Virus record (IMG/VR): IMGVR_UViG_3300046702_000006
Span: 1 to 42,777 of that record
DNA: 42,777 bases
From: a virus
Reading direction: 5' to 3' (one strand)
Part shown: piece by piece, positions 4,025-42,777 of the stretch
Numbering within the stretch: the stretch's first letter is position 1
Layout: every line of letters begins with the position of its first letter
The notes under the pieces: generated by a model
The model's input: the letters and a program-made list of their open reading frames with translations, nothing else
Databases searched by the model: none
What the model was told of the DNA's origin: nothing
Made by a program: the position numbers and the translations under genes

Positions 4025-4336
4025 TCATAATTGATTATGCCATTTAGATAAGTAATTAATTTTTAAAACTTTTCTTTTATTTATTATACATCCGTTTAAA
4101 TTAAATTTAGATATAACTAATTCTATATTAGCCAAGACATCCGCTATTTCCTCTTCTAACCAAATACGATTTAATTTACCAGTTTCTGGTTCTTTTTCAT
4201 CTATTCCTTGAATTATACATCTACAGGTAGCTGTCGCTGCTTCAGTTAATTCTTCTGCTAATTTCCCAAGATATTTTAGATCTAATTGATTGATTATAGG
4301 TTTCCATGGAGTTGGATTAGAATCTGGGGTTATCAT
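4025..4336 (-). CDS. MazG-like nucleotide pyrophosphohydrolase
   Basis: The 103-residue helical protein has the EExxE...ExxD arrangement of all-alpha NTP pyrophosphohydrolases: KLAEELTEAATA, then WLEEEIADVLANIELV. These residues bind magnesium in MazG/dUTPase-2 relatives that hydrolyse NTPs or dNTPs to the monophosphate. It lies just upstream of the polymerase gene with a 33-base gap, and its start overlaps the stop of the preceding gene (ATGA). A role in shaping the nucleotide pool during replication fits the position. The substrate cannot be told from sequence. Confidence 0.72.
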   Translation of the reverse strand: MITPDSNPTPWKPIINQLDLKYLGKLAEELTEAATATCRCIIQGIDEKEPETGKLNRIWLEEEIADVLANIELVISKFNLNGCIINKRKVLKINYLSKWHNQL

Positions 4337-4602
4337 AGCCCCTTCTGAAATAATATTAAATCTCTCTTTAATCCATTAATTTCATCCATCATTGGAGAAA
4401 CATGTATGCTGCCATAAACATTAAAAACTTTAATTGCCATTTCTAATCCTAATATTGTTTGTTCGCAAAGGATTCTACTAACTATTTCTTTATGATTATT
4501 AATAGAATTATTTTCTGTTACTTTAATTATATTTATCAGCGCGACCGCTTGATTTTTAATTCTTTCAAGATATTGAGGGGATATCATCCATTTGGTCTCC
4601 AA
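4333..4602 (-). CDS. Hypothetical helical protein
   Basis: An 89-residue protein I do not recognise. It is mostly helical with a central hydrophobic stretch (ILCEQTILGLEMAIKVFNVYG). It overlaps the upstream HNH gene by 19 bases and the downstream MazG-like gene by 4 (ATGA), so it belongs to the same message. The overlap suggests translation coupled to both neighbours. Confidence 0.6.
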   Translation of the reverse strand: METKWMISPQYLERIKNQAVALINIIKVTENNSINNHKEIVSRILCEQTILGLEMAIKVFNVYGSIHVSPMMDEINGLKRDLILFQKGL

Positions 4603-5864: not shown

Positions 5865-6725
5865 TCACTTTGTGACTGTTGGTTTACTAATTAAATCTTT
5901 CCATAATGGATAGAATTCTTTACAAGGTGGACAACTAATATCTATTGGAGTTGTAAGTTTAATCAATTGAGGGTAGCTTGAACGTGCAATCTCGTCTTGG
6001 AAAATAACAGAGCGGCGAATTGTTTTAGTGCTTATTACTACTTCCTTCTTAGGAAAATGATATATTTCATCAAACTTTGTAGGAATCCGCGCCGCGATTT
6101 TATTTCCATGGGCTAAAATCTTATAACCGTCTTGTATATTTTGAGTAGGTTCTCCGGGAGCGCCTTTGACTGTACGATAGGATTCTACTTCATGGGCTAT
6201 TAGGATAACATTTGCATATCGTTTAATATCTATAAAATTCTCATACATTAACTGTCTCCAAGCTTCGGTTTCATAACCATAATCTTCAATTGTCATTAAT
6301 TGTAATTCTCCGCGCCGCCGACCTTTTTTATCTGCTTCTTTTTTACCTTCATTCTTTTCTATAGTTATATTAAGTGAATCCGCAATAGAAAAGTCATTAT
6401 AACTTGAGAACGAATCAAGTATTAAAGTATGAAATGGAGCGCGGTTAAACTTAACACAAGTATCTCTTAATTCTATAACTCTATTAAGTACTCCTATTGC
6501 ACCTTCCACATTTGTAAATTCGTCATATACAATAGGACGTCCGCGCAAAGCATTAATTCGACCATCTAATTCCAACATATAACAAGGACGGTCATCGTCG
6601 CCACCGAAATCTTTAGATTTATAACCAAATGAAGTAGCAGCATAAGATTTACCACCATCAGCAGGACCAACAAATAAGAATAAGTTAGTTGTTTCTAAGG
6701 GGATATCTTTAGTAGATTTGGGCAC
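5865..6725 (-). CDS. Sak4-like RecA-fold recombinase ATPase
   Basis: A 286-residue single-domain RecA-fold ATPase. Walker A is GPADGGKS (20-27) and Walker B is the hydrophobic strand FHTLILDSFSSY. Size and layout match Sak4-type single-strand annealing or strand-exchange proteins (AAA_24 phage nucleotide-binding family). Translation probably starts at GTG 6725, which shares one base with the upstream TAG and follows GGAAGG. The next gene is SSB-like, the usual partner. It likely handles recombination-dependent replication or concatemer formation. Confidence 0.78.
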   Translation of the reverse strand: MPKSTKDIPLETTNLFLFVGPADGGKSYAATSFGYKSKDFGGDDDRPCYMLELDGRINALRGRPIVYDEFTNVEGAIGVLNRVIELRDTCVKFNRAPFHTLILDSFSSYNDFSIADSLNITIEKNEGKKEADKKGRRRGELQLMTIEDYGYETEAWRQLMYENFIDIKRYANVILIAHEVESYRTVKGAPGEPTQNIQDGYKILAHGNKIAARIPTKFDEIYHFPKKEVVISTKTIRRSVIFQDEIARSSYPQLIKLTTPIDISCPPCKEFYPLWKDLISKPTVTK

Positions 6726-6904
6726 TATCCTTCCATTTCTTCTATTTCGGAATAACTAATAATTTTATCATCTATCATAAAATTACAAGTAACAAATCCA
6801 GTTGTTTCTAATTTAGAACAACTTTCATTTAATATACCATTTATCTTTAATAAATTCTCTTTAGTTATATCTTCAGTATCTATTTCTATACTCAAAAAGA
6901 TCAT
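6725..6904 (-). CDS. Small acidic hypothetical protein, coupled start
   Basis: A 59-residue frame starts at ATG 6904, overlapping the upstream stop (ATGA), and ends at TAG 6725-6727, which overlaps the Sak4 GTG start by one base. It encodes an acidic helical peptide (IEIDTEDITKENLLKINGIL ... EIEEMEG). Filling the gap exactly with coupled overlaps at both ends is the main evidence. Function unknown. Confidence 0.6.
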   Translation of the reverse strand: MIFLSIEIDTEDITKENLLKINGILNESCSKLETTGFVTCNFMIDDKIISYSEIEEMEG

Positions 6905-7119
6905 GGATGTCCTTTAGGTCTCTCAATATCATCGTTCCTAATCATAATTCCATTAATATCTACTTTAGAAATCTTATATCCACGCGGGGCGGAGCCAGGG
7001 ATTAAAGGGAAATCAAAGTATACCATACATTCTTTTTTAGAAAACTCACGTTCTTCTTCTATAGTTTTAAGTCTCATATTTGCTACTGTTAAAGAGTTGT
7101 CAAGTTCTCGGAAAGTCAC
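6901..7119 (-). CDS. Hypothetical protein
   Basis: A 72-residue protein with a charged N-terminal helix (LKTIEEEREFSKKE) and a beta-rich C-terminal half (GYKISKVDINGIMIRNDD). It overlaps both neighbours by four bases. I do not recognise the family. Confidence 0.6.
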   Translation of the reverse strand: MTFRELDNSLTVANMRLKTIEEEREFSKKECMVYFDFPLIPGSAPRGYKISKVDINGIMIRNDDIERPKGHP

Positions 7120-7415
7120 AAATCTCCTTTTAAAAATTCTGCAAAAACATCATTAGTAACTTTAATTTTTCCTATTTCTAATTGTTTTTTAATAGGTTTT
7201 CCTTTGTGTGTACATTTCATACAATGAACTATTTTACGTCGTAGATGTTCTGGTGTAATAATAAACTCGCCTTGACAAAATGGACATTCAGCCAAGCGGC
7301 CCGGAAGTAATTTTGCGGAAATTAAATGAGTACAACGATCTTTTATACAACGAAAGGAATGTGATCCAAATACAGCTTTATATGTATGGAGGTGAACGGG
7401 TTTTAAGATTCGCAA
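7116..7415 (-). CDS. Zinc-finger protein, TTG start
   Basis: The 99-residue protein has several cysteine pairs: CIKDRC, CPFC and CMKC, with nearby histidines (HLRRKIVHC). This suggests one or two zinc-binding knuckles and a nucleic-acid-binding role. The first codon is TTG at 7415; the upstream small membrane gene ends seven bases before it. Exact start is uncertain. It is one of a group of small zinc-ribbon proteins in this arm. Confidence 0.6.
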   Translation of the reverse strand: MRILKPVHLHTYKAVFGSHSFRCIKDRCTHLISAKLLPGRLAECPFCQGEFIITPEHLRRKIVHCMKCTHKGKPIKKQLEIGKIKVTNDVFAEFLKGDL

Positions 7416-15406: not shown

Positions 15407-15700
15407 AATCTAGTTTCCCAATCGTCAGTGTGACCATATGGCCGGAAAGTGGGGAAGCTGCGCTAGAGCAGACCCTGAGCAGACGGTAAGCATGATGGTA
15501 GCAGACGGTAAGGGAGGTGTCAAGACATCTAAGTCCTTTAGAATGAGTGGGTTAGGGGCGAAGAGAGGGCGAAGGGTGGGGTACTGCCTCTCTCTACCCT
15601 CTGGTCCCTCAGACCCCTGTAGAAAATGTGTTGATTCTAAAGGAGTTAAGGGTATCTCTCGGTTCCCGTAGGGGGAGGGTTTGTTAAGTCTTTTGTTATC

Positions 15701-15728
15701 AATATATATATATATTATATATATTAAA
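15701..15728. other. Alternating AT tract, possible DNA-unwinding element
   Basis: A run of about 28 bases made only of A and T, mostly alternating TA, lies between the first and second repeat copies in an otherwise G/C-richer stretch. Such tracts melt easily and are common in origins. Confidence 0.45.
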
Positions 15729-16150
15729 CGCAATCGAGTAGGGGGACCTTTTGCTTCGCAAAATAGGGTTAAGTACTTTGTTTTCAATATCTTATAAGGG
15801 AAAATGACTACCCTATTATCTGCTCTAGGTCTGCTTCCAGGTTGCTCCTAGCGTGCGAAAGTACGGATATCTGCAAAATACGATTTGTTGATTCTAAAGG
15901 GGTTAGACTAAGGCAAAAGCGAATGGAAAGCGAAAGGTGGGTGAATAGAAGGCGAAAGTCCCGATTTTGCCCAGATTTCAAACGAATTACTACAAGTGTC
16001 GCAAGTTGTTGATTCTAAAGGGGTTATCGGTTTCCGGGCTATTTTGGGAAATATCTAGTAGCTTCGCTTGATATTTTTGAAAGTTTTCTAAAGTGTTGAT
16101 TCTAAAGGGAAAATAGTTTCAAAATAGTTGATCGCGTAGCGAAAAAAGAC

Positions 16151-17582: not shown

Positions 17583-17954
17583 TTGAGAAATTTATGGGAA
17601 TCTAGTTGGGTTTTAGTAATTTCTTTTCTAATATTATTTATATTTAATATCCCTACAGGAGTTGCCACAGCCGATACTCCAGAATCATATAATATAAATC
17701 AAAAAGTAGAAGAGTTAGATAAGAATTTGGCAGTATTACAAAATTCAGTTACTTCCCATCTTTCAGAACAAGAAAGTGAACATTTTACCGCTCGAATTGC
17801 GGTATTAGAAGTTAAGATGACCGCGGTAGATTCTAAACTGTCAGTTATATTAGGAACTTTAATAGCACTTTTTCTTGCTATAATTGGTGAATTTATTCAT
17901 CGAACTGTACTTGCGAATAATATTAGTAAAATGAATGTGAATGGAAACAAATGA
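17583..17954 (+). CDS. Holin-like membrane protein with coiled coil
   Basis: A 123-residue protein starting at TTG 17583 after AAAGGAG. It has a hydrophobic N-terminus (SSWVLVISFLILFIFNI) with a possible signal-peptidase site after VATA, a coiled-coil middle (KVEELDKNLAVLQNSV, ARIAVLEVKMTAVDSKL), and a C-terminal transmembrane helix (VILGTLIALFLAIIGEFI) with a basic end. The coiled coil followed by a membrane helix recalls XhlA-type phage proteins. It is the first gene of the right arm. A lysis role is plausible but unproven; a structural or exclusion role is possible. Confidence 0.6.
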   Translation: MRNLWESSWVLVISFLILFIFNIPTGVATADTPESYNINQKVEELDKNLAVLQNSVTSHLSEQESEHFTARIAVLEVKMTAVDSKLSVILGTLIALFLAIIGEFIHRTVLANNISKMNVNGNK

Positions 17955-18127
17955 TTGAACCTACCGAAGGACAACGCCGCTGCCAAAATTCACCGTTGGG
18001 TATTGTACTTAAGGAATATATAGATAGTGAAAGTAATGAAGGAGAATCTAATGTCCATCGACTCAATTGCGAGGGATCTGTTGAAATCACCGCTCCAGAA
18101 ATCAGCGGTGGAAATAAAAGCGGATGA
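17951..18127 (+). CDS. Small hypothetical protein overlapping the next gene
   Basis: A 58-residue frame from ATG 17951, overlapping the upstream stop (ATGA), to TGA 18125-18127. It is polar and acidic (EYIDSESNEGESN) with two cysteines. Its second half lies within the gene at 18051 in another frame, so it might be an out-of-frame extension rather than a real gene. The coupled start is the support. Confidence 0.4.
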   Translation: MIEPTEGQRRCQNSPLGIVLKEYIDSESNEGESNVHRLNCEGSVEITAPEISGGNKSG

Positions 18128-18374
18128 TACTTTAACTAAATTAACTTCCGCGGGTTTTGGTAGTGATGAATTATTTACTAAGATGAGTGATATATATGAG
18201 ACAGCAGAAGATGATTCTATTAAGAGACAAATCTTAGATATGGCAATTAAAATGCATGGATTATATGCAAATAAAGATGATAATAAAGTAGTACCTAAGT
18301 TTAATCTAAATATTATTAGTGAACAAGGTAATAGAATTTATGAAATGTTATGTCCTCCAATGGAAGTGGTATGA
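18051..18374 (+). CDS. Possible small terminase subunit
   Basis: A 107-residue protein starting at ATG 18051 with AAGGAG seven bases upstream. It has a basic, helical N-terminus (SIARDLLKSPLQKSAVEIKA), an acidic helix (LFTKMSDIYETAEDDSIKRQ), then ILDMAIKMHGLYANKDD and VVPKFNLNI. The DTA/ETAxD...A.K.HGLxxxK pattern followed by a short strand resembles small terminase or related DNA-binding proteins. No other gene in the window is a better candidate, but it lies about 6 kb from the large subunit, so this is tentative. Confidence 0.4.
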   Translation: MSIDSIARDLLKSPLQKSAVEIKADDTLTKLTSAGFGSDELFTKMSDIYETAEDDSIKRQILDMAIKMHGLYANKDDNKVVPKFNLNIISEQGNRIYEMLCPPMEVV

Positions 18375-18703
18375 GTCAACCTTTAATTAAAGATAGTTAT
18401 CGAGAGATTGGAATGGATGTTTTTGGGAAAGGTGAAGCGAAACCTACCCCAACATTACCTAAACCTAAACCAATCCTTGAACAATTCTTAGATCGACTAT
18501 ATAGATTAACTACAAGTAAATATGGTCGTATTTTAGATTTATTTATTGTAGTAGAACATCCAATAGAAATTCACGAACTTGTAGATATTTGTAAAATATA
18601 TTGTAATAAAAGATCAATGAGATTCCTAGGTGTTACTCCACTATTTGAGCATCTAAACTTGGAGGAAATTGAAGATTGCAAAAAATCGCTCGTGCGGTCT
18701 TAA
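18371..18703 (+). CDS. Hypothetical protein
   Basis: Start chosen at ATG 18371, overlapping the upstream stop (ATGA), for 110 residues. After a proline-rich linker (KPTPTLPKPKPILEQ) comes an alpha/beta domain (YGRILDLFIVVEHPIEIHEL, DICKIYCNKRSMRFLGV) that looks compact. It ends inside the next gene. Not recognised. Confidence 0.55.
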   Translation: MSQPLIKDSYREIGMDVFGKGEAKPTPTLPKPKPILEQFLDRLYRLTTSKYGRILDLFIVVEHPIEIHELVDICKIYCNKRSMRFLGVTPLFEHLNLEEIEDCKKSLVRS

Positions 18704-19173
18704 CTTTACTTCTATTTAGTATCGTAGCGGCAGCCCAAGTAAATCCTCAAGTTGAGGCTGCATTTAGTTATTACTATACTGCCTCACTTTCCGGTACCGC
18801 GTCTGTAGTTACAATTCAACATACAATTTACGATCAGAAAATAGTTCAATTTAAATCTGCTTATTTATATTGTAGTGCCGCGACTATAATTGATTTAGAG
18901 AAAAATGGAACGACTGCCACTACAACAGTGGGAACTATTACAGCGGTAAATCCAAATACTCCGAGGGTACAAACTGCACAAGCTAGAGCATATCGTAGTA
19001 GTAATGTAGGAGTTGGAACTGTTCTACAAGAATATCAACTTTCTGCAGGTATGGGTATGTCTATAGATTTAACAAATATTAGATTAGATAGTGCTCTAGC
19101 CAGCAATCTTTCATTCCGCACTAATTCTACGACAGCTTCCTGTACGATTGGAATAACTTGGTTTGAACAATGA
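18676..19173 (+). CDS. Exported beta-rich protein
   Basis: A 165-residue protein starting at TTG 18676 with GGAGG upstream. It has a clear Sec signal peptide (positive KIAR, hydrophobic AVLTLLLFSIV, cleavage after AAA before Q21). The mature part is beta-rich with Ser/Thr repeats and paired cysteines. It is the first of several exported proteins in a row. Role unknown: cell-surface modification, superinfection exclusion or an appendage protein assembled outside the cytoplasm are options. Confidence 0.62.
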   Translation: MQKIARAVLTLLLFSIVAAAQVNPQVEAAFSYYYTASLSGTASVVTIQHTIYDQKIVQFKSAYLYCSAATIIDLEKNGTTATTTVGTITAVNPNTPRVQTAQARAYRSSNVGVGTVLQEYQLSAGMGMSIDLTNIRLDSALASNLSFRTNSTTASCTIGITWFEQ

Positions 19174-20060
19174 GATTAGTCTTAGTAATTTTATTTAGTA
19201 TAATTTTATTGGAAGGACAAGATGTTAAATCAGTAAATGGGGGTAGTAGTTCAGGTGGAGGCGGTAGTGCAACTATTGCGAATACTACATCAATTCTTAA
19301 AGGCGATAATGCAGGTAATGGTGTCGCCGCTTCTCCAGGTACAGACTACCAATCCCCATTAACTGGTCCTATGACTCAGGCCGTTGCCAATAGTGTTGCT
19401 AATTCTGTTAGTGTTGGGGTAGGTACTAGTGGTACGGCTTTTGCTAAGACCTCAGTGACGATTGACCCTAGCACGGGAGCGATTGCGACGCCAAGTACTA
19501 TTTCATCTGGTATTGGTGGAGGCGTAGCAGGGTCGGATGGTTTAGGTTATGGTACTCCAACATCCGCTCCTACTGGATTTGTGGGTTTCCAGGCTCCAGC
19601 CAGTGTCACAACTCCATTCTTTATGAATCTTCCAGTTCTCCCGTTGACAGGATTCTTGTTTAATACAGGGACTACAGATCCTAGTGTACTTACGTTTGTG
19701 AATATTGTACCTGCGGCAAATCTATCTGCAACTCCAGTTAGCATCGCTGCGACTACACATACTATGACTGCACCGCGTGAGTACTTCTTTTGCACCACGG
19801 CAACGGCTTGCTCAGTCACGCTTCCGGTTCCCGCTGCTGGTTATGAGTTCTGTGTACGTTCTGATAATAATGTCTCGACAGCTATTACAATTGCGGCCCG
19901 CACAAGTATTCTGTACGAGAAGGCTGACCGAACTGGTTGGGGCACAGCAGGAAATAGCATCTCCTCTGGTGCAGCAGTGACTAATCAAATCTGCGTTATT
20001 GGTTACGATGCCACACATTATGCAATCATGTCCTCGGTCGGAACGTGGACCAATAACTAG
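19170..20060 (+). CDS. Signal-peptide-bearing fibre-like protein
   Basis: A 296-residue protein with a hydrophobic leader (RLVLVILFSIILLEGQ), a GSSSGGGGSA linker, and SILKGDNAGNGVAASPGTDY, a phrase of the sort seen in phage tail-fibre and collar proteins. The C-terminal part (TATACSVTLPVPAAGYEFCV ... NQICVIGYDATHYAIM) looks like a small beta sandwich. Base composition changes from AT-rich to GC-rich around 19440-19480, so the gene looks like a join between phage and foreign sequence. It overlaps the previous gene by four bases. Confidence 0.58.
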   Translation: MRLVLVILFSIILLEGQDVKSVNGGSSSGGGGSATIANTTSILKGDNAGNGVAASPGTDYQSPLTGPMTQAVANSVANSVSVGVGTSGTAFAKTSVTIDPSTGAIATPSTISSGIGGGVAGSDGLGYGTPTSAPTGFVGFQAPASVTTPFFMNLPVLPLTGFLFNTGTTDPSVLTFVNIVPAANLSATPVSIAATTHTMTAPREYFFCTTATACSVTLPVPAAGYEFCVRSDNNVSTAITIAARTSILYEKADRTGWGTAGNSISSGAAVTNQICVIGYDATHYAIMSSVGTWTNN

Positions 20061-20069
20061 GAGAGCATC

Positions 20070-20768
20070 ATGAGAATACTTCTACTCGTACCGCTTCTGG
20101 TTTCGGCAAGTTGGGCGCAAATGAATATGGCGATTGTGGGGACGGCGGCTGCTCCTTCGGGGTCAGTTTCGATAGCGTCATTAACTGCCACGTCAAGCAG
20201 CGGCTCCAGTATTTCGGTCAGCCTTAATGCCCCGATTCCGGCCGGGGACCGAGTGTTTTTATTTGCTTGGTCTGACAACTCCTCCTCTACCCTGTCATCG
20301 TGTAGTGACGCGAACGGGGGTTCCGACGTATTTAGTAAAGATTTAACATATAGTCCCGCTCCTGCTTTTTACATATCGGCCCCTGTATCTACAACTCTTG
20401 CTAGCGCGAGTAGTGTTACTTGCGCGACGGGCGGAGGGTATGCGGATTGGTATCTTCAGCTTTTAGACATACATCCGGGAGGATCAGGCATCGATACAAC
20501 CACGGCAGCTATTTCTGGGGTATCGGGATATGTCACGACTACCACGACGGGGGCATACACGACCGGATACAATGATATCTGTATTGGTATGATTAATACG
20601 TTGAGTAATGTTTCTTTGACTGATGCGACTGGCTATACGCAACTGTCCCCAACCAGCTTCTATTCGGGAGCGTTTGCGTGGAAGCTCGTTTCAACTGGCG
20701 GAGATGCAGTAAGGACCGCAACCCAAGCGGGCTCAAATGGCTACTATTTCCTACAGTGTTACAGGTGA
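20070..20768 (+). CDS. Exported Ser/Thr-rich beta protein
   Basis: A 232-residue protein with AGGAG upstream, a classical signal peptide (RILLLVPLLVSASWAQ) and a beta-sandwich-like mature part (SISVSLNAPIPAGDRVFLFA, YADWYLQLLDIHPGGSGIDT). The wording SASLTATSSSGSSISVS... is typical of bacterial surface proteins. GC-rich codons and the AQ cleavage site suggest host origin. It is followed directly by the hydrolase gene. Role unknown, perhaps binding the same carbohydrate. Confidence 0.6.
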   Translation: MRILLLVPLLVSASWAQMNMAIVGTAAAPSGSVSIASLTATSSSGSSISVSLNAPIPAGDRVFLFAWSDNSSSTLSSCSDANGGSDVFSKDLTYSPAPAFYISAPVSTTLASASSVTCATGGGYADWYLQLLDIHPGGSGIDTTTAAISGVSGYVTTTTTGAYTTGYNDICIGMINTLSNVSLTDATGYTQLSPTSFYSGAFAWKLVSTGGDAVRTATQAGSNGYYFLQCYR

Positions 20769-20773
20769 CAATA

Positions 20774-22951
20774 ATGCGACGGTCTCTGCTTGTCCTACTG
20801 TGTGTAGCCGCCTGGCTCCCTGCTCAAACCGTTCTTCTGTCTGACGACGCCGAGAGGGTTATCCCTTGGAATGCCGCTGAAGGTGGCGGTATCCTCAACT
20901 CGCAGGCGCAGATCCATTCGGGAAAATACAGTTGGAGCGCTCCTGCCTACACTCAGTCTTATACTTATTCTAGTTATATGCCGGGTTCCCATGATCCAAT
21001 ATACCTGAAATTCTGGGTTTACGTTCCGAGCAGTTTCACTGTCCCGTATTGGGACGGGGGTTATGCGGGAACCGCCGCTGAGGTTGCGCGGCTATTTAAT
21101 ATCCCGGCCTATACCCGCTATGAATTTGCATTGGCCAACACTTGTGCGTCAAGCTGTCCATCCCCCGTAAACCTCTACGTGAATGCAGGTAGTAATGTTG
21201 GAACGATGGGATCGAATGGAACCAATATCGTTACGAGAGACGCGTGGAACTCCATCGAAATCGAATATAACGTAGGGGCCGGGACGATCACTGAATGGTT
21301 GAACGGAACGCAAGATATTACACTGACAGGCCAAACGCTTCCATCCACTATGAATAACGTGATGCTTGGGCTGGCACAAGGGACAGGATCGGTCTACTTC
21401 GATGACGTGACGGTGAGCGACACGTACAGCGGTAATCCGTCCTCGAACGTCACTGTACGCCATGCATATCCTGGAAACCGGGTCAAGATGAAGATCCAAA
21501 CGTACCTCTGGGGAGAAGCGTCTACCGACGTTCTGGTGAGTTCCATCGACGGGACGGCATTCAGTACGATCACAAATCCAGGAGGCTATCAGGAGCCGAT
21601 TCTGAACGTGTCAGCTCTGTCTGCCGGAAATCATACGCTGTTAGTTGCCCTAAAAAATTCAGGCAGTTCTACACGATCATCCTGGACTGAGACTCTTGCC
21701 GCTAGTGGGGCTGTGCCGACCGTAGGCATCGATGAGAATAATAATTTGGTAGTCGGTGGTCATAAGATATTTCCGGTTACCGGATGGTTTACAAACCAAG
21801 GAAGCGGATTATACTGGCTCCAGCAAGGTTACACAAACGCTGGTGGCTGGGTATCGCCATCCGCCGCTACTTACGATGAGAGCCAATACCAGACGTACTG
21901 TGACACCTATCACGGATACGGCCGAGTCGCCGGTCCTATGTCAACGCGGATGAGCGTCGCTGGGGGCGTCCCCGACTATGCCGCCTACGCAAGCACGATG
22001 ACATCGGACGATTGCGTACTAGCATGGTCAACTTACGATGAGCCGAGCGTGAACGGGTGGACCGTCTCGCAAATGCAGCGCGACATGAACAACGTCCACG
22101 CAAACGACAATAATCACCCCGTAATAATGGACGACGCGATTGTGCCGGGACTTAACCTGAATTGGTACTATCCGACCCTTGTGGCGGACATTTATGCCAG
22201 CGACACCTACGCCCTATGTAATGCAAACAACTCATCTCCGGGCGCTACCGCGTGGCTGGCTGGGCTCGACCAGATTCCTTATGCCAACTACTCTCTTGTC
22301 CCTCAGTTTGACGTGATTGACTTCTACCGCGATACAGTGGACTCCCACTGCGCAGATATTACGGCAACCACGATTTACAATGAGGCATGGCTGTCGGTGA
22401 TACATGGCCGTAAGGGCGTTAGCTGGTATGACAACGGGTCGGAAGACGAAAGCGACTACGGTCCTGTATGTAGTGGGAGTGCTCAATCGTGCTTCGTTGG
22501 AAGTCCGAGCACGCACGCCGGAAAGTTCGTCAGTCAGGTTGCCGCAATCACGCCAGACTCACTCTTGGCTGGACCGGGGCCGAATAACCGAACCGTAATC
22601 AGTAACCAGACAACAAACGTGACCCCCGGCGCAGTTGGAACCCGTGTGGATGCGTCTGTTTCGGATGATGGTACAAATACATGGATATTCGCGGCACGCG
22701 TTACCGATCTGATCGTCAATTCTGGCGACCCAAGCGCATCCGACCTATCCACCACGCTGACCATCTCCCCGGCCATAACCGGGACGGCGACAGTGTACGG
22801 GGAAAGCCGCACGGTTTCAGTTGTGGGTGGAGCGCTCACGGACAACTTCAGTCCATACGGCGTTCACCTTTACTGGTTAGCAGATACCACAACGCCCATC
22901 CCCAACCGCATCACAAGCGGGAAGGTGACCCGAACAGGGAGGATTCAGTGA
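20774..22951 (+). CDS. Exported glycoside-hydrolase-like enzyme
   Basis: A 725-residue protein. ATG 20774 gives a signal peptide (MRRSLLVLLCVAAWLPAQ); GTG 20765, overlapping the previous stop, would add three residues. Mature residues to about 240 look like a jelly-roll sugar-binding domain (YLKFWVYVPSSF, GSVYFDDVTVSD). A short beta domain follows, then a TIM-barrel-like catalytic region: IFPVTGWFTNQ, CVLAWSTYDEPSV (an acid-base DEP like the NEP of GH-A enzymes), HPVIMDDAIV, ADIYASDTY, IYNEAWLSVIHGRKGVSWYD. The end is a beta domain. A polysaccharide-degrading role is likely, but the substrate is unknown. GC-rich composition implies acquisition from a bacterium. Confidence 0.65.
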   Translation: MRRSLLVLLCVAAWLPAQTVLLSDDAERVIPWNAAEGGGILNSQAQIHSGKYSWSAPAYTQSYTYSSYMPGSHDPIYLKFWVYVPSSFTVPYWDGGYAGTAAEVARLFNIPAYTRYEFALANTCASSCPSPVNLYVNAGSNVGTMGSNGTNIVTRDAWNSIEIEYNVGAGTITEWLNGTQDITLTGQTLPSTMNNVMLGLAQGTGSVYFDDVTVSDTYSGNPSSNVTVRHAYPGNRVKMKIQTYLWGEASTDVLVSSIDGTAFSTITNPGGYQEPILNVSALSAGNHTLLVALKNSGSSTRSSWTETLAASGAVPTVGIDENNNLVVGGHKIFPVTGWFTNQGSGLYWLQQGYTNAGGWVSPSAATYDESQYQTYCDTYHGYGRVAGPMSTRMSVAGGVPDYAAYASTMTSDDCVLAWSTYDEPSVNGWTVSQMQRDMNNVHANDNNHPVIMDDAIVPGLNLNWYYPTLVADIYASDTYALCNANNSSPGATAWLAGLDQIPYANYSLVPQFDVIDFYRDTVDSHCADITATTIYNEAWLSVIHGRKGVSWYDNGSEDESDYGPVCSGSAQSCFVGSPSTHAGKFVSQVAAITPDSLLAGPGPNNRTVISNQTTNVTPGAVGTRVDASVSDDGTNTWIFAARVTDLIVNSGDPSASDLSTTLTISPAITGTATVYGESRTVSVVGGALTDNFSPYGVHLYWLADTTTPIPNRITSGKVTRTGRIQ

Positions 22952-23140
22952 ATGGGGCGAAGTCAAACTTGTTATTGTAGATCTTGTAAAAAATGTAAAC
23001 ATCGTATATATACGCGTAAATGGAGAATAAATATGACTCCAACACAATTTGCCCATAAAATTTATCAATTAGAGTTACAAACTATTAATAAAATAATTAG
23101 ACCATTAATGTATCACAAAGTGTCTTATGAGCGATCATAA
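22952..23140 (+). CDS. Small zinc-knuckle protein with FAHKIYQLEL tail
   Basis: A 62-residue basic protein beginning right after the hydrolase stop. It has CYCRSCKKCKHR, a CxCxxCxxC knuckle, followed by TRKWRINM and then FAHKIYQLELQTINKII. The same tail ends the next protein. Composition is AT-rich again, marking the end of the GC-rich block. Possibly nucleic-acid binding; the tail may be an interaction module. Confidence 0.6.
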   Translation: MGRSQTCYCRSCKKCKHRIYTRKWRINMTPTQFAHKIYQLELQTINKIIRPLMYHKVSYERS

Positions 23141-23399
23141 ACATACTTACTGTAATAAGGGGCACGAATTATCTGGAGGGAATATTCGCCTAAGGGCCAA
23201 TAGCACAAGACGCGAATGCCGGATATGTCGGAATGAGCGTCAAAGGAATTACATGAGAAAGGTTTGTCCGATACCCAAGGAACAGTGGGAAGTATTATAT
23301 CCCGAAACCCATGACATTACAAAGTTTGCTCATGAGATTTACCAACTGGAACTTGAGACTATTTCTAAAATAGTAGCAAAAGGAAGAAGTCTTCGATGA
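23127..23399 (+). CDS. HNH-like zinc protein with FAHEIYQLEL tail
   Basis: A 90-residue protein with YCNKGHELSGGNIRLRA and RRECRICRNERQRNYMRK, the CxxGHxLxGxN ... CRxC arrangement seen in short phage HNH/zinc proteins. It lacks a clear second catalytic His, so activity is doubtful. The C-terminal FAHEIYQLELETISKIV nearly repeats that of the upstream gene, pointing to domain exchange or duplication. It overlaps its neighbours by 14 and 4 bases. Confidence 0.6.
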   Translation: MSDHKHTYCNKGHELSGGNIRLRANSTRRECRICRNERQRNYMRKVCPIPKEQWEVLYPETHDITKFAHEIYQLELETISKIVAKGRSLR

Positions 23400-23881
23400 A
23401 ATTTTTGGTTTTGTCTCTGTTGATATTTATCGGTACTTTAACCGCTCAAACACCAATTTCTGTTACAGTAACTTTAGGTTCTGGTCCTACCGCAAGTTCA
23501 GTAATTTTAACTGGAACAATTACTCCAAGAGTTTTATTGACTGGTGGAAATTGTATAGGTTCTTCTCTTGGTGCTTTTGCTACTTGTACAGTTAATTTAA
23601 ATATTCCAGCTCCAGGAGACCTTACAGTTACAGTTGGTGCATATCAATCTGGAGTTACTGGACCAACTTCATTTACTATTAGGGCTGGGGCTAATTCTGG
23701 TAGTTTTATTGTTACATTGATAATTAGTGCACATGCTATCTTAAATCCTACAGTAACTAATTGGACTTATGGCTCTCAGGGGATTATTGACTTATATTGG
23801 GGTTGTGGAGTAAATCCTGTATTTATGTCACCAGGACCATTCTTCAATCCAATGGTTTGGATGGATGGGAGTATTGGATAA
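23396..23881 (+). CDS. Exported beta-rich protein
   Basis: A 161-residue protein with a signal peptide (KFLVLSLLIFIGTLTAQ, cleaved before T19) and a mature beta-sandwich-like domain (ISVTVTLGSGPTASSVILTG, GDLTVTVGAYQSGVTGPTSF). Codons are AT-rich, so unlike the 20-23 kb block this one is at home in the phage. It starts within the previous stop (ATGA). Function unknown. Confidence 0.6.
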   Translation: MKFLVLSLLIFIGTLTAQTPISVTVTLGSGPTASSVILTGTITPRVLLTGGNCIGSSLGAFATCTVNLNIPAPGDLTVTVGAYQSGVTGPTSFTIRAGANSGSFIVTLIISAHAILNPTVTNWTYGSQGIIDLYWGCGVNPVFMSPGPFFNPMVWMDGSIG

Positions 23882-24794: not shown

Positions 24795-26453
24795 ATGGAA
24801 ATCTCTACAGATATTATAATTCGGTTTGTTAATAAAATACAAGAGGAATTTACTTATTGTAATAAAAGAAATCAAAACTTTAATGGGGGATACGGTAATG
24901 GAAAATCCTTCGGAGCAAGTAATAAAGCCATCTTGTTACTTAGTACTTTCCCGAGATATCGTATTGGAATTAGTAGATATAGTGCAAAAGAATTATCACA
25001 ATCCACTATGTCTACATTCTTTAAATGTTGTCCTACAGAATTGTATAACGATGCCTATGGGGGCCGGCGTAATGATAGAGATGGGGAACTTAGACTAATT
25101 AATGGTTCTGAAGTATTTTGGATGCATCTTGATGATTATTCGGAAGGTGATCTCCGCGGCAAGGAATTTAATTCGGTAATTACAGATCAGGCAGAAGAGA
25201 TTTCAGAAAATATATATCAAACACTTGATGCTCGTATTAATAGATGGGATATGGCTGAGATCCCAGAATTTCTAAATAAAGATTTATTCTCTAAAAATAA
25301 GTTTTCGGGAAGACCAGAACCACCTTGTTATAATATGTTACTTTTTAATCCCGATATAACTTTACATTGGATTTATAGAATGTTTCATCCTGAATCTTCT
25401 CGAGTTACAGATTTCTGCGGTCCGATGGAACGAGAGGAAAGGATTGGAGATTATAGTGGTTGTTACTATTATAAACATGCTGCTTGGTTTAGCGCGGCTA
25501 CGGCAGATAATCCCGCTGTTAGTGATGAATTAAAAAGAGCATATCTACGTAAAGATCAATCATGGATTGATAGATTTTATTGGGGAAAATGGGGAATTGT
25601 CGGCGGAGCAATTCACTATGTAAGTGCCCAATCTATCATAGAATTTAATGACAAAGATACAAGACCTTTGGTATTAAAATTATTAGAAGTAATACAAAAA
25701 GATGGTATTAAATATAGATCGATGGATCATGGAGAATCCGCGCCCACATGTATACTTTGGTTTTGTTACTTATCCCCATCGGTTATTTATAAAAATTATG
25801 GGGTAAAAAGTAAAGGAATTCATATCTGTTATAGAGAATATTATCAACCAGGTAAAATTATTAAATATCATAGAGAAATGATAAAATCATTAAGTGGTGA
25901 TGAAAAGTACTATGGTAACTATGCCGATCCTGCTATATTCCATAAAGACAGTGAAAAGTATGGTGGATTTTGGCGAACTGCAGATGATTATACAGATTTA
26001 AGAGGATTTACTGATCCGGAACGCCTTACCGCGCCACCTATTCATTGGACGCCAGCAGATAATAATGAAATGGCTACAAGAGATGCTATAAGTGAGTTAT
26101 TACAAATAGATGAAAATACATTTGATCCAATTACAGGTTTAATGGGCGCGCCGCAAATTTATTTTCTAAAACAACATACAGTAGAATATCCTCATGGTTG
26201 TATGCAAGTAATAGCGCAATGTCAAGCCGCGCGAAAAAAGAAGATCGGTAATGAGAATGGCGAAGATATTTATAGTGATGAAAGGGCCGATGGTCCGGAT
26301 CATGCGTATGATCCTTTTCGTTATTATGCTATTCAACCTAAAGTTCAAAATTTACCAATGGAACCTAAAGAAATACCACAATTTAGTTTTAATAATCATT
26401 TAAGAAAGGTTTCACCGAGGAGGATTTACAGATTGGGTTATGGCAGAAACTAG
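24795..26453 (+). CDS. terL: Terminase large subunit
   Basis: A 552-residue packaging ATPase/nuclease. Walker A is GGYGNGKS (31-38); the strand VITDQAEEI (128-136) supplies Walker B Asp and catalytic Glu. LRGKEFNSVITDQ is typical of TerL. The C-terminal RNase H-like nuclease has acidic residues in SMDHGESAPTCI, YGNYADPAIF and DGPDHAYDPFRY, the last being the third metal ligand. It cuts and pumps concatemeric DNA into the prohead with the portal. Its 3' end overlaps the portal start by 14 bases. The sequence does not show which packaging type is used. Confidence 0.93.
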   Translation: MEISTDIIIRFVNKIQEEFTYCNKRNQNFNGGYGNGKSFGASNKAILLLSTFPRYRIGISRYSAKELSQSTMSTFFKCCPTELYNDAYGGRRNDRDGELRLINGSEVFWMHLDDYSEGDLRGKEFNSVITDQAEEISENIYQTLDARINRWDMAEIPEFLNKDLFSKNKFSGRPEPPCYNMLLFNPDITLHWIYRMFHPESSRVTDFCGPMEREERIGDYSGCYYYKHAAWFSAATADNPAVSDELKRAYLRKDQSWIDRFYWGKWGIVGGAIHYVSAQSIIEFNDKDTRPLVLKLLEVIQKDGIKYRSMDHGESAPTCILWFCYLSPSVIYKNYGVKSKGIHICYREYYQPGKIIKYHREMIKSLSGDEKYYGNYADPAIFHKDSEKYGGFWRTADDYTDLRGFTDPERLTAPPIHWTPADNNEMATRDAISELLQIDENTFDPITGLMGAPQIYFLKQHTVEYPHGCMQVIAQCQAARKKKIGNENGEDIYSDERADGPDHAYDPFRYYAIQPKVQNLPMEPKEIPQFSFNNHLRKVSPRRIYRLGYGRN

Positions 26454-29630: not shown

Positions 29631-30731
29631 TTGAGTCTTACAGCAGGTTATCCGAGTCCAAACTCGTTAACTCTTAATTTAGATACGGTAATGACTCTGG
29701 CATTTGCTAATGCTGGAGATGAGATTTTCGATACTATTTCTAAAGGTAATGTTCTTTTCTATGAAATTAAGAAAAATGGTATGTATAAATCTGTTAATAA
29801 AATGAAACCGCAAATTATTATTCCTTTAATGTATGGATTAGGCCGCGCCGAATGGTATGAAGGTTGGGATGTACTTGGTACTCAACCAACCGAAGGCGTT
29901 ACTGATGCTCTTTTTGAGTATCGTCAATTAGCTTGCCCTGTTGGTTATAATCGCCGCGAACAACGAATGACTGATGCTAGTGATATTAAATCACTTGTAG
30001 AAGTTAAAATTAATCAAACTAAACTTACTATGGTCGATGTATTTGATATGGCTCTATTACAAGGTAATCTTAATAGTCCCGGCGGTTCTATTACTGACCC
30101 AATGTCTAGTGTAACTACTCTTCGTAAAGGAATAGAACCATTACCTAAATTGGTATATTATCAAGCAGGAACTACTTCTATCGCTCAAGTTACCGATTCT
30201 CTTTCTGTAGGAGGGTTGGATCAAGCTACTTACCCTTGGTGGCGGAATTGGTCCTATGAGCCTGGTTTTACTACACTTACTACTATGTTAGCCGCGTTTG
30301 ATTTAATGTATGCTCGCTGTAGTCGCGGCCCTGGTGGTGCCCCTGATATTATTATTACCGATGATACAACTCGTTCTCTATTAAATAGTGCATATTATCT
30401 TGCTTATCGTAGAAATATGGATACTGATAATGACTATCCTTTTGATAACCTTAAATTTCATGGCGCTAAAGTTGTTTGTGATGAATATGTTCCTGATGTT
30501 TATAGTGGTTTAGTAAATACCGATACTTATGGTACTGCTTACTTCCTTAATACTAAATTCCTTGGTATCACTTACGATCCTGAGACTAATTTTATTCTTA
30601 CCGATATGCAGAAACCTGTCAACCAGGATGGTAAAATTGGACATTCTCTTTGGATGGGAAATGCTACCGTATCTAATCGCCGCAAAAATGGCGTTATTGG
30701 AAAAATAGCTCGTACTTTGACCTTCAGCTAA
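29631..30731 (+). CDS. Major capsid protein
   Basis: A 366-residue protein with TTG start after GAGGTAAGA. It follows the scaffold gene, has few cysteines and a mixed alpha/beta content expected of HK97-fold capsids. Features include the N-terminal NLDTVMTLAFANAGDEIFDT segment, a GLGRAEWYEGWDVLGTQPTE loop, a long spine-like helix (SLVEVKINQTKLTMVDVFDM) and DIIITDDTTRSLLNSAYYLA. Length and position match. No Ig-like extra domain is visible. Confidence 0.85.
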   Translation: MSLTAGYPSPNSLTLNLDTVMTLAFANAGDEIFDTISKGNVLFYEIKKNGMYKSVNKMKPQIIIPLMYGLGRAEWYEGWDVLGTQPTEGVTDALFEYRQLACPVGYNRREQRMTDASDIKSLVEVKINQTKLTMVDVFDMALLQGNLNSPGGSITDPMSSVTTLRKGIEPLPKLVYYQAGTTSIAQVTDSLSVGGLDQATYPWWRNWSYEPGFTTLTTMLAAFDLMYARCSRGPGGAPDIIITDDTTRSLLNSAYYLAYRRNMDTDNDYPFDNLKFHGAKVVCDEYVPDVYSGLVNTDTYGTAYFLNTKFLGITYDPETNFILTDMQKPVNQDGKIGHSLWMGNATVSNRRKNGVIGKIARTLTFS

Positions 30732-31378: not shown

Positions 31379-32194
31379 ATGAGAGTTCGGAAGATTAAGG
31401 AACGGGTTTTAATTGCCTGCAACACGTTAACGTCTATAGCACTTCCAGCTTATTTTGATCACGCACGTTTCTATTATCGAGTAGGTAGAGATCATCCCGA
31501 TACAGAATTCTTTCAATATTTTGCTCGCCGCGCCAGTATTGATAAGTTCAGAAATTGGGCGGCTCAAGCAGCTATTTCAATGGATGCTAAATGGTTAATG
31601 TTTATAGATGATGATATGATGTTACCATTTGATTCTTATACCAAATTACGTAAAGTTAATTATGACATTGTTGGTGCTCTTAATTATATTCGAGGTTATC
31701 CTTTTAGATTAATGGCTTTCAAATATACTAAGAGTAATGAGAAACCACGTCGGTTAGCTAATATCTATCAAGAAGAATTACCAAAACCCCTTGGTGCGGT
31801 AATACCATGTAATGCTATTGGTACGGCAGTAGCTTTAATTCGAGTCGATATTTTTAAGAAAACTCCCGCACCTTGGTTTATTACTGGACCGCACAATACA
31901 GAAGATATCTATTTCTGTATTAAGGCTAAAGAATATGTTCCTAAAATTAAGATTGGAATGCATACCGGAGTAGTTACAGGTCATTTACTAGATCAAGAAG
32001 TTATATCTTATGAGACTTATGAAGATTTAAAGAAATTCTATGAGATGGGTATGACTCCGCGCGAAATTGAATCGACCCAATTTGGTGGGGAGCGCGGTGA
32101 GGCTTACGCGGCGGAGAATGAGAAAGAAGGTGATCCTAATCCTCAATTTGATTTAAATTTTGATATAACGGTAGATGGTGCGGAACAGTTATGA
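31379..32194 (+). CDS. Family 2-like glycosyltransferase
   Basis: A 271-residue GT-A fold protein. It opens with a strand (RVLIACNTLTSIALPAYF), has the metal-binding DDD in WLMFIDDDMMLPFDSY, then YDIVGALNYIRGYPFRLMAF, and ITGPHNTEDIYFCIKAKE, the usual later acceptor-site acidic motif. The C-terminal acidic tail is probably disordered. Such enzymes transfer a sugar from a nucleotide-sugar donor. Lying between capsid and neck genes, it may glycosylate a virion protein or a host surface sugar; the target is unknown. AAGGAA precedes the ATG. Confidence 0.78.
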   Translation: MRVRKIKERVLIACNTLTSIALPAYFDHARFYYRVGRDHPDTEFFQYFARRASIDKFRNWAAQAAISMDAKWLMFIDDDMMLPFDSYTKLRKVNYDIVGALNYIRGYPFRLMAFKYTKSNEKPRRLANIYQEELPKPLGAVIPCNAIGTAVALIRVDIFKKTPAPWFITGPHNTEDIYFCIKAKEYVPKIKIGMHTGVVTGHLLDQEVISYETYEDLKKFYEMGMTPREIESTQFGGERGEAYAAENEKEGDPNPQFDLNFDITVDGAEQL

Positions 32195-32751
32195 CCCAAC
32201 CATTACAAATTCTTAATATCGGATGCGGTAAGATGCCAATGGTTACTAATTCTAAAGTAAATTATACTAATTTAGATATGGTTCCATTTAATAAAACTGT
32301 GCGGAAATGGGATATTACTAAAATTCCATATCCATTTACTCCAGACTTCTTTGATAAAATCTATATGTTTCATACTATTGAACATATCCCCGAAGAACAA
32401 CATACAACTATCTTATGTGAATATCGTAGGATACTTAAAGAGGGTGGATTGTTAATGATATCTTATCCTGAGTTTCCTCTTGTTGCTCGTAACTACCTTA
32501 ACAACAGAGGTGGAGAGCGGGAATTTTGGAAGAATGCTATATATGGGCGCGGACTTACCGGATGGGACCGTCATAAAGCATTGATGGATACTCCGTTCTT
32601 TGTTAAAACTTTAAATGCTTGTGGATTTCATCCTACTAGTATTAAACGAGAAACTAATCAAGATTTTAATACTGTAGTTATTTGTAAGAAAGGTGTTCCT
32701 GGTCTAACTTACGAAAGTTTGATGGAAAAGGAATTTGGGAAGAAATCTTGA
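32191..32751 (+). CDS. Class I SAM-dependent methyltransferase
   Basis: A 186-residue Rossmann-fold methyltransferase. Motif I is LNIGCGKMP (8-16), followed by NLDMVPFN (acidic loop), FFDKIYMFHTIEHIPEEQH and the post-motif ILKEGGLLMISYP. It overlaps the glycosyltransferase stop (ATGA), so the two are made together. The pair fits a sugar-modifying pathway, for example O-methylation of a transferred sugar. The substrate cannot be read from sequence. Confidence 0.8.
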   Translation: MTQPLQILNIGCGKMPMVTNSKVNYTNLDMVPFNKTVRKWDITKIPYPFTPDFFDKIYMFHTIEHIPEEQHTTILCEYRRILKEGGLLMISYPEFPLVARNYLNNRGGEREFWKNAIYGRGLTGWDRHKALMDTPFFVKTLNACGFHPTSIKRETNQDFNTVVICKKGVPGLTYESLMEKEFGKKS

Positions 32752-32945: not shown

Positions 32946-33858
32946 CGTTACCGCGTCCATAGAGGATATCTTTACAGAAGTAGTTTCAACTATATATGAT
33001 CTTGGTTTAAAGTGGTATACTAATACAGAAGTAATGAATTCAATACAAGATCAATATAACAAATTAGTTGCTATGTTATGTCCAATATCTAAATCAACTC
33101 TTATACCCAAAATAAATAGTCCATATATACCACTCAAGGATTGGATTGCAGATTTTATGTATGTATCTGCAATCTTTAATCCTACTACTAATTTATGGTT
33201 AGAAGGTAGAAGTTATAAAACTATGAAGAGTGATTTCCAAACCTATTTTATGACAGGCGAACCTAAATGGTTTAATGTTGTTGATTTTCGAAGATTATTA
33301 ATTTGGCCTTATTTACCTACCCCTACTTCTGCCTTATATTTAATGTATAAAGCCTCCGCGCCCTCAATATCGCTTGCCCATATACCTATTTTGCCCCATA
33401 GTGTTGCCTCTCAATTACTTGAGTACGCTACAGTTGCAGACTTACTTGAACAGGCGCGGGAGTTTAAGAAAGCGGGAATTTGGTGGGATAAGATTTATAA
33501 ACCACTTACTACAACTACTAAATCTCTTATAGATCAAGCAAGAGTCGAGATTAAATCACTTTCTAGGATGGATATGGAAACAGTATTAGAACCATACCGT
33601 TGGATTTTCCAAGGAGGAACCTTTAGTGATACGATGTGGATAGACAATGAAACCCCAGATGGTACGAAAGATGGTACTAATCCTATATTTACTTTAGCAC
33701 AAGTTCCGAATCCAACAGCTTCACTGATATTAAGTCGTAATGGACAAATTCTATTTCAAGGCAATGATTACAATTTAAATGGACGAACTATAACTTATGA
33801 AACCGGACAAATACCTCAACCTTCTGATTCGGAGCGAGCATGGTATCAGATAAGTTAA
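32929..33858 (+). CDS. Neck/adaptor-type virion protein, possible CTG start
   Basis: The first standard start is ATG 33034 (274 residues), but the frame stays open upstream and reads PLVHDVTASIEDIFTEVVST then DLGLKWYTNTEVMNSIQ, a helical region typical of phage adaptor N-termini (a helix, W, then a short helix). The best start is a CTG at 32929, nine bases after GGAGG, giving about 309 residues. The C-terminal part (PTASLILSRNGQILFQGND, YNLNGRTITYETGQIP) is a beta domain. Position before the tailspike and neck genes supports a head-tail connector or virion baseplate role. If CTG is not used, the shorter form applies. Confidence 0.6.
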   Translation: MPLVHDVTASIEDIFTEVVSTIYDLGLKWYTNTEVMNSIQDQYNKLVAMLCPISKSTLIPKINSPYIPLKDWIADFMYVSAIFNPTTNLWLEGRSYKTMKSDFQTYFMTGEPKWFNVVDFRRLLIWPYLPTPTSALYLMYKASAPSISLAHIPILPHSVASQLLEYATVADLLEQAREFKKAGIWWDKIYKPLTTTTKSLIDQARVEIKSLSRMDMETVLEPYRWIFQGGTFSDTMWIDNETPDGTKDGTNPIFTLAQVPNPTASLILSRNGQILFQGNDYNLNGRTITYETGQIPQPSDSERAWYQIS

Positions 33859-35756
33859 TCAAAATTACATCAGTTAGTTTGTTAGGTATTGGATTACTAT
33901 TCATTGCTGCTATTACTCAAATTGATTACAATACTCAAATTAAAAATCAACCAGTCCTAACTGTAACTGGAGCTCCCTATAATGCTAAAGGTAATGGAAC
34001 AGCCGACGATACTGTAGCTATTCAAGCGGCAGTAACAGCAGTATGTGCCCTTGGTAATGTTACTTTGGTATGGCCTCATGGTATATATTCTATGACGCAT
34101 GGGATTACAGTCACTGGTTGTAATGATGTGATATTTGACGGACAGGGATCGAAACTGTTTGTTCCAAATGATATTGTTGATACTAGTTATTTAGCTTCAT
34201 GGCCTACTTTTGGTAAGGATTCATTTTTCCGTATACTTAATAGTAATAATATAACAATTCAGAATTTTAATATGGATCAAAATCTTCCAAATCGAACAGC
34301 TCATATTGGAGGTGAGAGTGCTAATTCCTGCTTACTAATTGCAGGATCAAATAATGTCTATATCCAACACAATATACTTAAAAACTGTATGACAGATGGG
34401 GTATTAATAGTTAAAGATGGAAGTGCAGTCACTAACACAAACATTTGGATAACTAACAATACAATCCCCGCCGCGCGGAGAAATGGGATTTCCGTCGTTG
34501 CAGCTACGCACTGGAGAATCCTTAGCAATATTATTTCCCTAACAGGTACAATTCAAGGTACACTACCCAAATCTGGTATTGATGTTGAGCCAGATCAGGT
34601 CGCATTTGATACAACAGATGGTCTTATTGATGCCAATACATTTACAAGTGATGCGGGTAACGGGATTCTCGTAACGGGACTCGCATCTAAAGATCTTGGA
34701 ATTTCCCATAATCATGTATCTAACGAAGCAGCTGCTGGAATTCGTTTGGATGATACTGGAGTTGGAAGTGTTGGTGTAAATGTATTGGTTGGCCCCGGAA
34801 ACATAGTAAGAGAAGATACTACTGACGGAATGTTAATTCGAGGTCAAATGGCTAATTCAATATGGGGAAATACCCTTTGCGACAACGGTAGTGAAGGTTT
34901 GTCTCTATGGGAGGTTAAAAATATACTTGTATCGAATAATGAAGTTTGTAGGAATCTCCAAGGAGGTATTGGAGTTGGATCTGTAACATGGGGATTTAAC
35001 TTTAAGTCTGCAATTCTACAAAATAATAACATACATGATAATGGAAGTGCACAAGCAATTATAGATGGCGTATCTTTTGGAATAGATGCATATTCTACTG
35101 ATGCAACAAGTATATTGATTTTATATAGTAATACCCTACAAGGAGCAAGTGGGACATTTCAACGCGGTTCTCGTATGTATGGAGGAACTGCCATAGCTAC
35201 AGAATATGCCACTAATATAGGAGTTGAAAATGGTAATGTTACTTGGGCTGGGAATTGGTTACACAATTTATTAAACTCTGTGCTTATTAACGATCCGCAA
35301 TATATTACCTTACTAGCTATCAGAAATGGCATATCCCAAGCAGCTTATAATCTTCAAGAACTCCAATCAGTTAATGGTACAGTTGGTGTTGCTAATAGAG
35401 TTATAGCAAACGGATATATAGATCAACGATATTATCGTTTATCAGATAGTGTCCAAATGGGACATATCTCTTATAATGGTTCCGGGGCTAGTGGATTTCA
35501 AAACTTTGGGATTATGAGCGATGGTGCAGATTCTTTCGTGTTAGGCACCGCGAATAATGTACCAGTAACTTTTTATACAAACAGCTTAATTCGTGGTTCA
35601 ATTCTTGGGAATGGGCATTGGTTAATTGGCACTGCAACGGATTCCGGAGCTATAATTTATAGATGTCTTACAGCAGGAACTCTTGCGGCTGGAACACTTA
35701 CATCTGTTTCCACAGGTTGTGGGACTTCTGTAGATACGGGACTTAGGACTCCATGA
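33840..35756 (+). CDS. Tailspike-like right-handed beta-helix protein with N-terminal membrane helix
   Basis: A 638-residue protein. After an N-terminal hydrophobic segment (LIKITSVSLLGIGLLFIAAI) comes the classic pectate-lyase-3 start GAPYNAKGNGTADDTVAIQAAV split by position (PYNAKGNGTADDTVAIQ), then many beta-helix coils (NNITIQNFNMDQ, SNNVYIQHNILKNC, GNTLCDNGSEGLSL). Such spikes bind and often cleave surface polysaccharide. The C-terminus (AGTLAAGTLTSVSTGCGTSV) may be a trimerisation end. The hydrophobic start is unusual for a virion spike, so export or membrane anchoring is possible. Its start overlaps the neck gene's end. Confidence 0.78.
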   Translation: MVSDKLIKITSVSLLGIGLLFIAAITQIDYNTQIKNQPVLTVTGAPYNAKGNGTADDTVAIQAAVTAVCALGNVTLVWPHGIYSMTHGITVTGCNDVIFDGQGSKLFVPNDIVDTSYLASWPTFGKDSFFRILNSNNITIQNFNMDQNLPNRTAHIGGESANSCLLIAGSNNVYIQHNILKNCMTDGVLIVKDGSAVTNTNIWITNNTIPAARRNGISVVAATHWRILSNIISLTGTIQGTLPKSGIDVEPDQVAFDTTDGLIDANTFTSDAGNGILVTGLASKDLGISHNHVSNEAAAGIRLDDTGVGSVGVNVLVGPGNIVREDTTDGMLIRGQMANSIWGNTLCDNGSEGLSLWEVKNILVSNNEVCRNLQGGIGVGSVTWGFNFKSAILQNNNIHDNGSAQAIIDGVSFGIDAYSTDATSILILYSNTLQGASGTFQRGSRMYGGTAIATEYATNIGVENGNVTWAGNWLHNLLNSVLINDPQYITLLAIRNGISQAAYNLQELQSVNGTVGVANRVIANGYIDQRYYRLSDSVQMGHISYNGSGASGFQNFGIMSDGADSFVLGTANNVPVTFYTNSLIRGSILGNGHWLIGTATDSGAIIYRCLTAGTLAAGTLTSVSTGCGTSVDTGLRTP

Positions 35757-42575: not shown

Positions 42576-42777
42576 ACTTTACTTAATTGATAGCAATTTT
42601 CACATAAAAAATTATGTAAGGATGCTAATCTATCTTTAGGATAAAGAAATTCTGCTCCGCATTCTTTACAAAAAGAAATTCCTTCGTCTATCTTTTGTTG
42701 TTCTGTTTTCTCCATAATTTCCTCTATCTTCATTGAATTAAGTTCTTCTTTAGTAAGGTCACAACTAAATATTTCCT
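42569..42777 (-). CDS. Zinc-ribbon protein, C-terminal part (continues at position 177)
   Basis: The 3' part of the gene that starts at 177. It ends at TAA 42569-42571, inside the T-tract of the terminator. It contains FCKECGAEFLYPKDRL and LCENCYQL, a CxxC...CxxC zinc ribbon. In the repeat copy here a codon reads GAA (Glu) where the left copy reads GTA (Val), the only difference between copies. Confidence 0.75.
   Translation of the reverse strand, partial: EIFSCDLTKEELNSMKIEEIMEKTEQQKIDEGISFCKECGAEFLYPKDRLASLHNFLCENCYQLSKVK
42692..42777. repeat. Right copy of the terminal direct repeat
   Basis: Matches positions 1-86 with one mismatch (T at 42747, A at 56). Joining the ends through it keeps an open frame, which supports a closed map of 42,691 bases. 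Confidence 0.93.

Follow-up and report, generated by a model that had tools for sequence, protein, structure and literature searches.

Textbook accounts place the assembly of tailed phages entirely in the cytoplasm, and tailspikes of the P22 type join otherwise complete particles last, a step that also works in vitro. Phage proteins that use host export include endolysins with signal peptides and superinfection-exclusion lipoproteins. The mosaic adhesive trimer (MAT) proteins of Bdellovibrio are phage-tail-fibre-like with a signal peptide in front (PMC10769870), and WceF of Pantoea stewartii, a trimeric beta-helix resembling a tailspike, carries an export signal (PMC7949094). The absence of a signal peptide has been taken as support for the phage origin of DGR target proteins (PMC6199706).

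The DNA analysed here, referred to as the window, is the whole 42,777-base IMG/VR virus record IMGVR_UViG_3300046702_000006, which holds an entire tailed-phage genome. Its two ends (1-86 and 42692-42777) form a direct repeat of 86 bases with a single mismatch, indicating that the genome is probably complete and circularly assembled. Terminase, capsid and tail spike genes are recognisable, replication genes lie on the opposite strand, and the GC content is 35%. Among the window proteins scanned, we recognised no integrase, repressor or endolysin; a divergent relative, L006 (terminase 57% identical to that of the window), has a lysozyme-like gene just before terminase. Predicted cleavage sites ending in AQ presumably point to Acidobacteriota or Bacteroidota as candidate hosts. 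Shine-Dalgarno sites precede 41% of window genes against a background of 10%, which speaks against Bacteroidota.

Several other features of this genome were observed. The sequence TTGATTCTAAAGG occurs exactly four times at 15631-16108, where a gap separates the divergent arms, and the matching gap of the relative L003 contains one copy (4334-4346); a role as phage promoter or origin repeat is possible. An 870-aa protein (1379-3991) with an N-terminal uracil-DNA-glycosylase-like domain resembles a family A DNA polymerase, the polymerase part being read by eye. Anp1-like glycosyltransferase and methyltransferase genes are located between the capsid and tail genes (31379-32751), making virion glycosylation possible, and genes resembling this pair are found in L004 (9512-10788).

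Signal peptides were scored in 57 window genes with a home-made measure combining h-region hydrophobicity, n-region charge and the -3/-1 residues. Named by their start positions, the top scorers were 18676, 20070, 20774, 23396, 17583, 33840, 24378 and 19170 (Table 1), of which 24378 is a 61-aa membrane protein. A sequence-only reading had proposed six exported proteins at 17583 to 23396, four with leaders ending in AQ; all six ORFs are present there, and their leaders, including those four AQ endings (18676, 20070, 20774 and 23396), stand out against both internal-methionine and shuffled nulls. Internal Met positions reached the 3.9 threshold in 0.85% of 8571 trials and 5.4 in 0.14%, and the shuffle p value was <=0.001 for every AQ leader; the weakest leader was that of 19170 (p 0.048). 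N-h-c leaders with AxA-type sites, as in Sec/SPase I secretion, were thus found by this heuristic score and its nulls, less clearly in 19170. Six of the seven leader genes fall within nine consecutive genes (permutation P about 0.0005), and five consecutive late genes (18676, 19170, 20070, 20774 and 23396) have SPase-I-type leaders. No member of the leader set has a lipobox cysteine at +1, where the residue is Q, D or I throughout, and no peptidoglycan hydrolase domain was matched in the cluster by Pfam, PHROG or NCBIfam. Core virion proteins have no leader.

Table 1. Window genes named in the text, with positions in the window; a slash marks the predicted cut.
Gene	Positions	Strand	Leader	Cysteines	Other features
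17583	17583-17954	+	leader-like N-terminus, ATA/D		coiled coil; C-terminal second TM helix
18676	18676-19173	+	AAA/QV, cut after residue 20; score 7.0	2 (mature)	small beta-sandwich protein
19170	19170-20060	+	weak, LEG/Q	4 (mature)	Gly-rich linker; fibre-like motif ATIANTTSILKGDNAGNG
20070	20070-20768	+	SWA/QM	4	beta-rich domain; GC3 0.48
20774	20774-22951	+	LPA/QT	8	region with DEP motif; GC3 0.58
HNH-endonuclease-like gene	23127-23399	+			within leader cluster; phrog_1492, E 9e-8
23396	23396-23881	+	LTA/QT	3	short beta-rich protein
Terminase large subunit	24795-26453	+	none		context gene
Major capsid protein	29631-30731	+	none		context gene; phrog_9953, E 6e-34
Tailspike 33840	33840-35756	+	present	8	post-leader segment IDYNTQIKNQPV; right-handed beta-helix; C-terminal YRC...CGTSVDTGLRTP

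The exported set proposed earlier therefore holds for five consecutive genes, with the four AQ leaders strong and 19170 weak, and it changes at two points. The seventh leader, that of 33840, lies outside the region first proposed, and 17583 probably does not belong to the appendage set: its coiled coil, its second TM helix and the absence of a leader from its apparent L003 counterpart (7107-7367, matched by eye) favour its assignment as a probable lysis-region membrane protein. Placement before terminase, which had been considered unusual, carries no significance of its own: in relatives, this slot is occupied by an endolysin (2318-2788 in L006) or by further fibre-like genes (L003).

Cysteine parity provided a second line of evidence. 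In eight phage records, with leader proteins picked automatically and cysteines counted in the mature part, counts were even in 24 leader proteins and odd in five, compared with 63 even and 94 odd in other proteins of the same phages (Fisher p 2e-5, an optimistic value since related proteins were pooled and not all are independent). Wrong gene starts account for two of the five odd cases. Cysteine content was 1.9% in leader proteins and 1.3% in the others, and a hand-picked set gave even-to-odd ratios of 21:4 for leader proteins and 14:16 for leaderless fibres. Paired cysteines of the kind seen in disulfide-bonded exported proteins are likewise present in the window set, with the exception of 23396. 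A bias in this direction agrees with disulfide bonding in a compartment that is oxidising. Leaders could also be hydrophobic N-termini with a job other than export, for example as a membrane tether in assembly or penetration. The cleavage sites of 33840 and 19170 are indeed weaker, and the leader of 33840 could be an uncleaved membrane anchor, which counts against export; most members nevertheless combine AxA/Q sites with charged n-regions and even cysteine counts, and we consider such a non-export role very improbable. Export of the window leader proteins, as predicted from sequence, is well supported.

The leader cluster is missing from most of the 34 terminase relatives compared, and it was rejected as a clade-wide trait. 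In L006, 18676 has a homologue of 44% identity (6659-7150) that begins with a different leader of its own. The end of this gene is overlapped by the next one (start 7135), whose product has a leader and, after it, the common phage-fibre motif GDLSGTYPNPTV. The start of 19170 similarly overlaps the 18676 stop. This pair is upstream of terminase in the window and its counterpart is downstream of portal in L006, indicating that the pair moves as a unit with both leaders kept. Used alone as query, 18676 had no homologue in viral contigs, and a profile search with it found only L006. Its structure model (leader helix and 10 strands, pLDDT 66) bears a weak resemblance to small beta-sandwich proteins of phages, and comparison of this moderate-quality model with the PDB gave no convincing match. 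The fibre reading of the 19170 motif was made by eye, and tblastn against phages returned no match to it.

Base composition bears on another explanation, that secreted host genes were gained by recombination and kept their leaders by chance, with no role in any system. GC3 is 0.48-0.58 in 20070 and 20774 against about 0.2, and these two genes look recently acquired; the block at 20070-22951 is GC-rich within a 35% GC genome and adjoins the HNH-like gene. Consistent with such host cargo, no homologue of 20774 was found in viral contigs or in cultured phages or plasmids. By contrast, 18676, 23396 and 33840 have phage-like GC3 (0.17-0.22), which argues against recent import from a host as the sole source of the leaders; 19170 is intermediate (0.33). 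Leaders are furthermore conserved in L006 and recurrent on fibre and spike proteins of many phages, and we regard chance host cargo as improbable for the set. As apparently recent gains, 20070 and 20774 need not be virion parts. Directly after the GC-rich block, at 22952-23399, the HNH-like gene adjoins a short ORF (22952-23140) that has a near-repeat of its C-terminus (FAHKIYQLELQTI and FAHEIYQLELETI), an arrangement that may mark the route by which the GC-rich cargo came in.

The 20774 product probably combines a lectin-like domain with a glycoside-hydrolase-like region. It matched phrog_2448 (E 2e-8), residues 276-700 are 24% identical to an archaeal MAG protein, and a Pfam search gave no match; the enzyme reading was made by eye because the structure model failed (pLDDT 28).

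Leaders are not confined to this genome, and unrelated phages also carry fibre and spike gene clusters with leaders. Proteins with the fibre motif GDLSGTYPNP had a leader-like N-terminus in about six of 80 sampled viral contigs, and neighbouring fibre-repeat proteins have leaders in, for example, L064, L049, L072 and L091. YRC...CGT..DTGLR, the motif at the C-terminus of the window spike, occurs in five distinct proteins found here, and each of them has a leader. L104 shows the same order as the window, with three leader-bearing genes between TerS and TerL; homology between its genes and the window genes of matching order was not detectable, and the likeness of L104/L105 gene order to window 20070-20774 was rejected as homology and is an analogy only. 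In cultured phages and plasmids, we found no homologue of 19170, the L104/L105 beta-sandwich genes, the L169 N-terminus, the spike C-terminal motif or a leader-bearing family adjacent to capsid genes that is described below. Phage record G025 also encodes a leader-bearing protein of 1360 aa (L299, 10876-14958) whose mature part has 36 cysteines.

In three phage records, a leader precedes the head-binding domain of podovirus tailspikes (G023, L163:17977; G025, L300:1977; G029, L304:1050). Their matches to this domain in the Pam1 tailspike (PDB 7eeq) had E-values of 1e-9, 0.001 and 0.03, respectively; the last is weak by itself, and the domain motif aligns in it. The domain begins at residue 1, with no leader, in the cultured homologues Pam1, PBR31 and P26218. 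When 80 IMG/VR loci were scanned for the domain motif, a large majority of them had it at residue 25-30, and 79 of the 80 lacked such a leader, the lone exception (L194) being G029 itself. The three records contain terminase, portal and/or capsid genes, with portal and capsid families phrog_156 and phrog_283 in G025 and G029, and the G023 spike has an additional CxxC within its head-binding domain. The best indication that exported proteins may reach particles is this placement of a docking domain behind a predicted signal peptide.

In each of these records, another leader-bearing gene adjoins the capsid gene. It belongs to a family with the pattern SATGI...D.E...V...RG (L163 5648-6424, L300 9493-10236 and L304 10707-11756), whose members may be exported and decorate the capsid. 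Two other G023 genes, 4245 (capsid) and 2177, were excluded because their leader-like scores arose solely from wrong starts.

The window spike, 33840, matched Pfam Beta_helix (E 1.6e-11) and the tail spike families phrog_7458 and 2234 (E 3e-13). It shares both its post-leader segment and its C-terminus with the spike of L172; comparison with the PDB gave no docking-domain match, and the segment common to the L172 spike is short. The 33840 protein would work like a spike, and we do not claim its membership in the head-binding-domain class. No head-binding domain was detectable in any of the window's own leader proteins, and their attachment to the virion is therefore inferred from other phages and from the place of the spike among tail genes.

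These leader proteins might instead be exported and never join the virion, as soluble enzymes or adhesins that are freed at lysis and clear host polysaccharide or debris, or that occupy envelope receptors and block superinfection. The secreted lectin/hydrolase appearance of 20774 and the beta-helix of 33840, with no detectable head-binding domain, agree with this possibility, as do the tailspike-like and fibre-like proteins that bacteria themselves export, such as Pantoea WceF (PMC7949094) and the Bdellovibrio MAT proteins (PMC10769870). In three phages, however, the leader is followed by a virion-docking domain, and 33840 is flanked by tail genes as the sole recognisable tailspike of its genome. 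We therefore find export without a place on the virion unlikely, although more plausible than either host cargo or a non-export role.

Overall, we lean somewhat towards the interpretation that the window leader genes encode outer-virion appendages that would be made via Sec, oxidised in the periplasm and docked at or after lysis. With the same modest confidence, the appendages would comprise the spike, the fibre-like protein, the small beta-sandwich proteins and the lectin/hydrolase-like protein. Spike- and fibre-type proteins would be made with Sec signal peptides and exported late in infection; their leaders would be removed after export, and the mature parts would fold and form disulfides in the periplasm. 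Mature appendages would then dock on finished particles once lysis mixes the compartments, a late step made plausible by the attachment of P22-type spikes to finished particles. Among the functions first suggested for this cluster, an appendage added outside the cell is favoured by the fibre motifs, the docking domain behind leaders and the cysteine pairing. Degradation of exopolysaccharide is possible for 20774 and 33840, both of which probably cut or bind host polysaccharide; surface remodelling by a lysogen is a weaker option because integrase and repressor are absent among the proteins scanned.

Taken together, these comparisons suggest that some tailed phages may export their spikes across the cell membrane for late attachment. 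Whether they represent a class of tailed phages with Sec-exported receptor-binding spikes and outer-virion proteins, periplasmic disulfides and virion assembly in two compartments appears to us evenly balanced. If true, leaders before spike docking domains together with paired cysteines mean two-compartment assembly, which would allow disulfide-rich spikes and let the spikes of co-infecting phages mix outside the cell. In practice, a signal peptide should not count as evidence of bacterial origin for a fibre-like gene, and predictors trained on leaderless spikes may miss receptor-binding proteins of uncultured phages. What is new is the unusual route by which spikes and fibres would be made; the open-access literature searched contained no description of it or of leader-bearing phage spikes.

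Compared with known systems, exported endolysins and superinfection-exclusion lipoproteins differ from the window leader set, which has neither a lysozyme-type domain nor a lipobox. The Bdellovibrio MAT proteins serve the bacterium's own surface, and WceF has a Tat signal and lies in a bacterial biofilm gene cluster, whereas the present cases are in phage genomes with terminase and capsid. Podovirus tailspikes (Pam1, PDB 7eeq; Xanthomonas phage PBR31) share their head-binding domain with the three leader-bearing spikes of other phages, and they resemble the window in having a beta-helix spike in a phage tail gene neighbourhood; known members start at this domain and are leaderless, unlike the window spike, in which the domain is not detectable. 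DGR target proteins of phages are likewise phage-encoded variable ligand-binding proteins, and leader-bearing phage fibres and spikes are counterexamples to the no-signal-peptide rule used for them.
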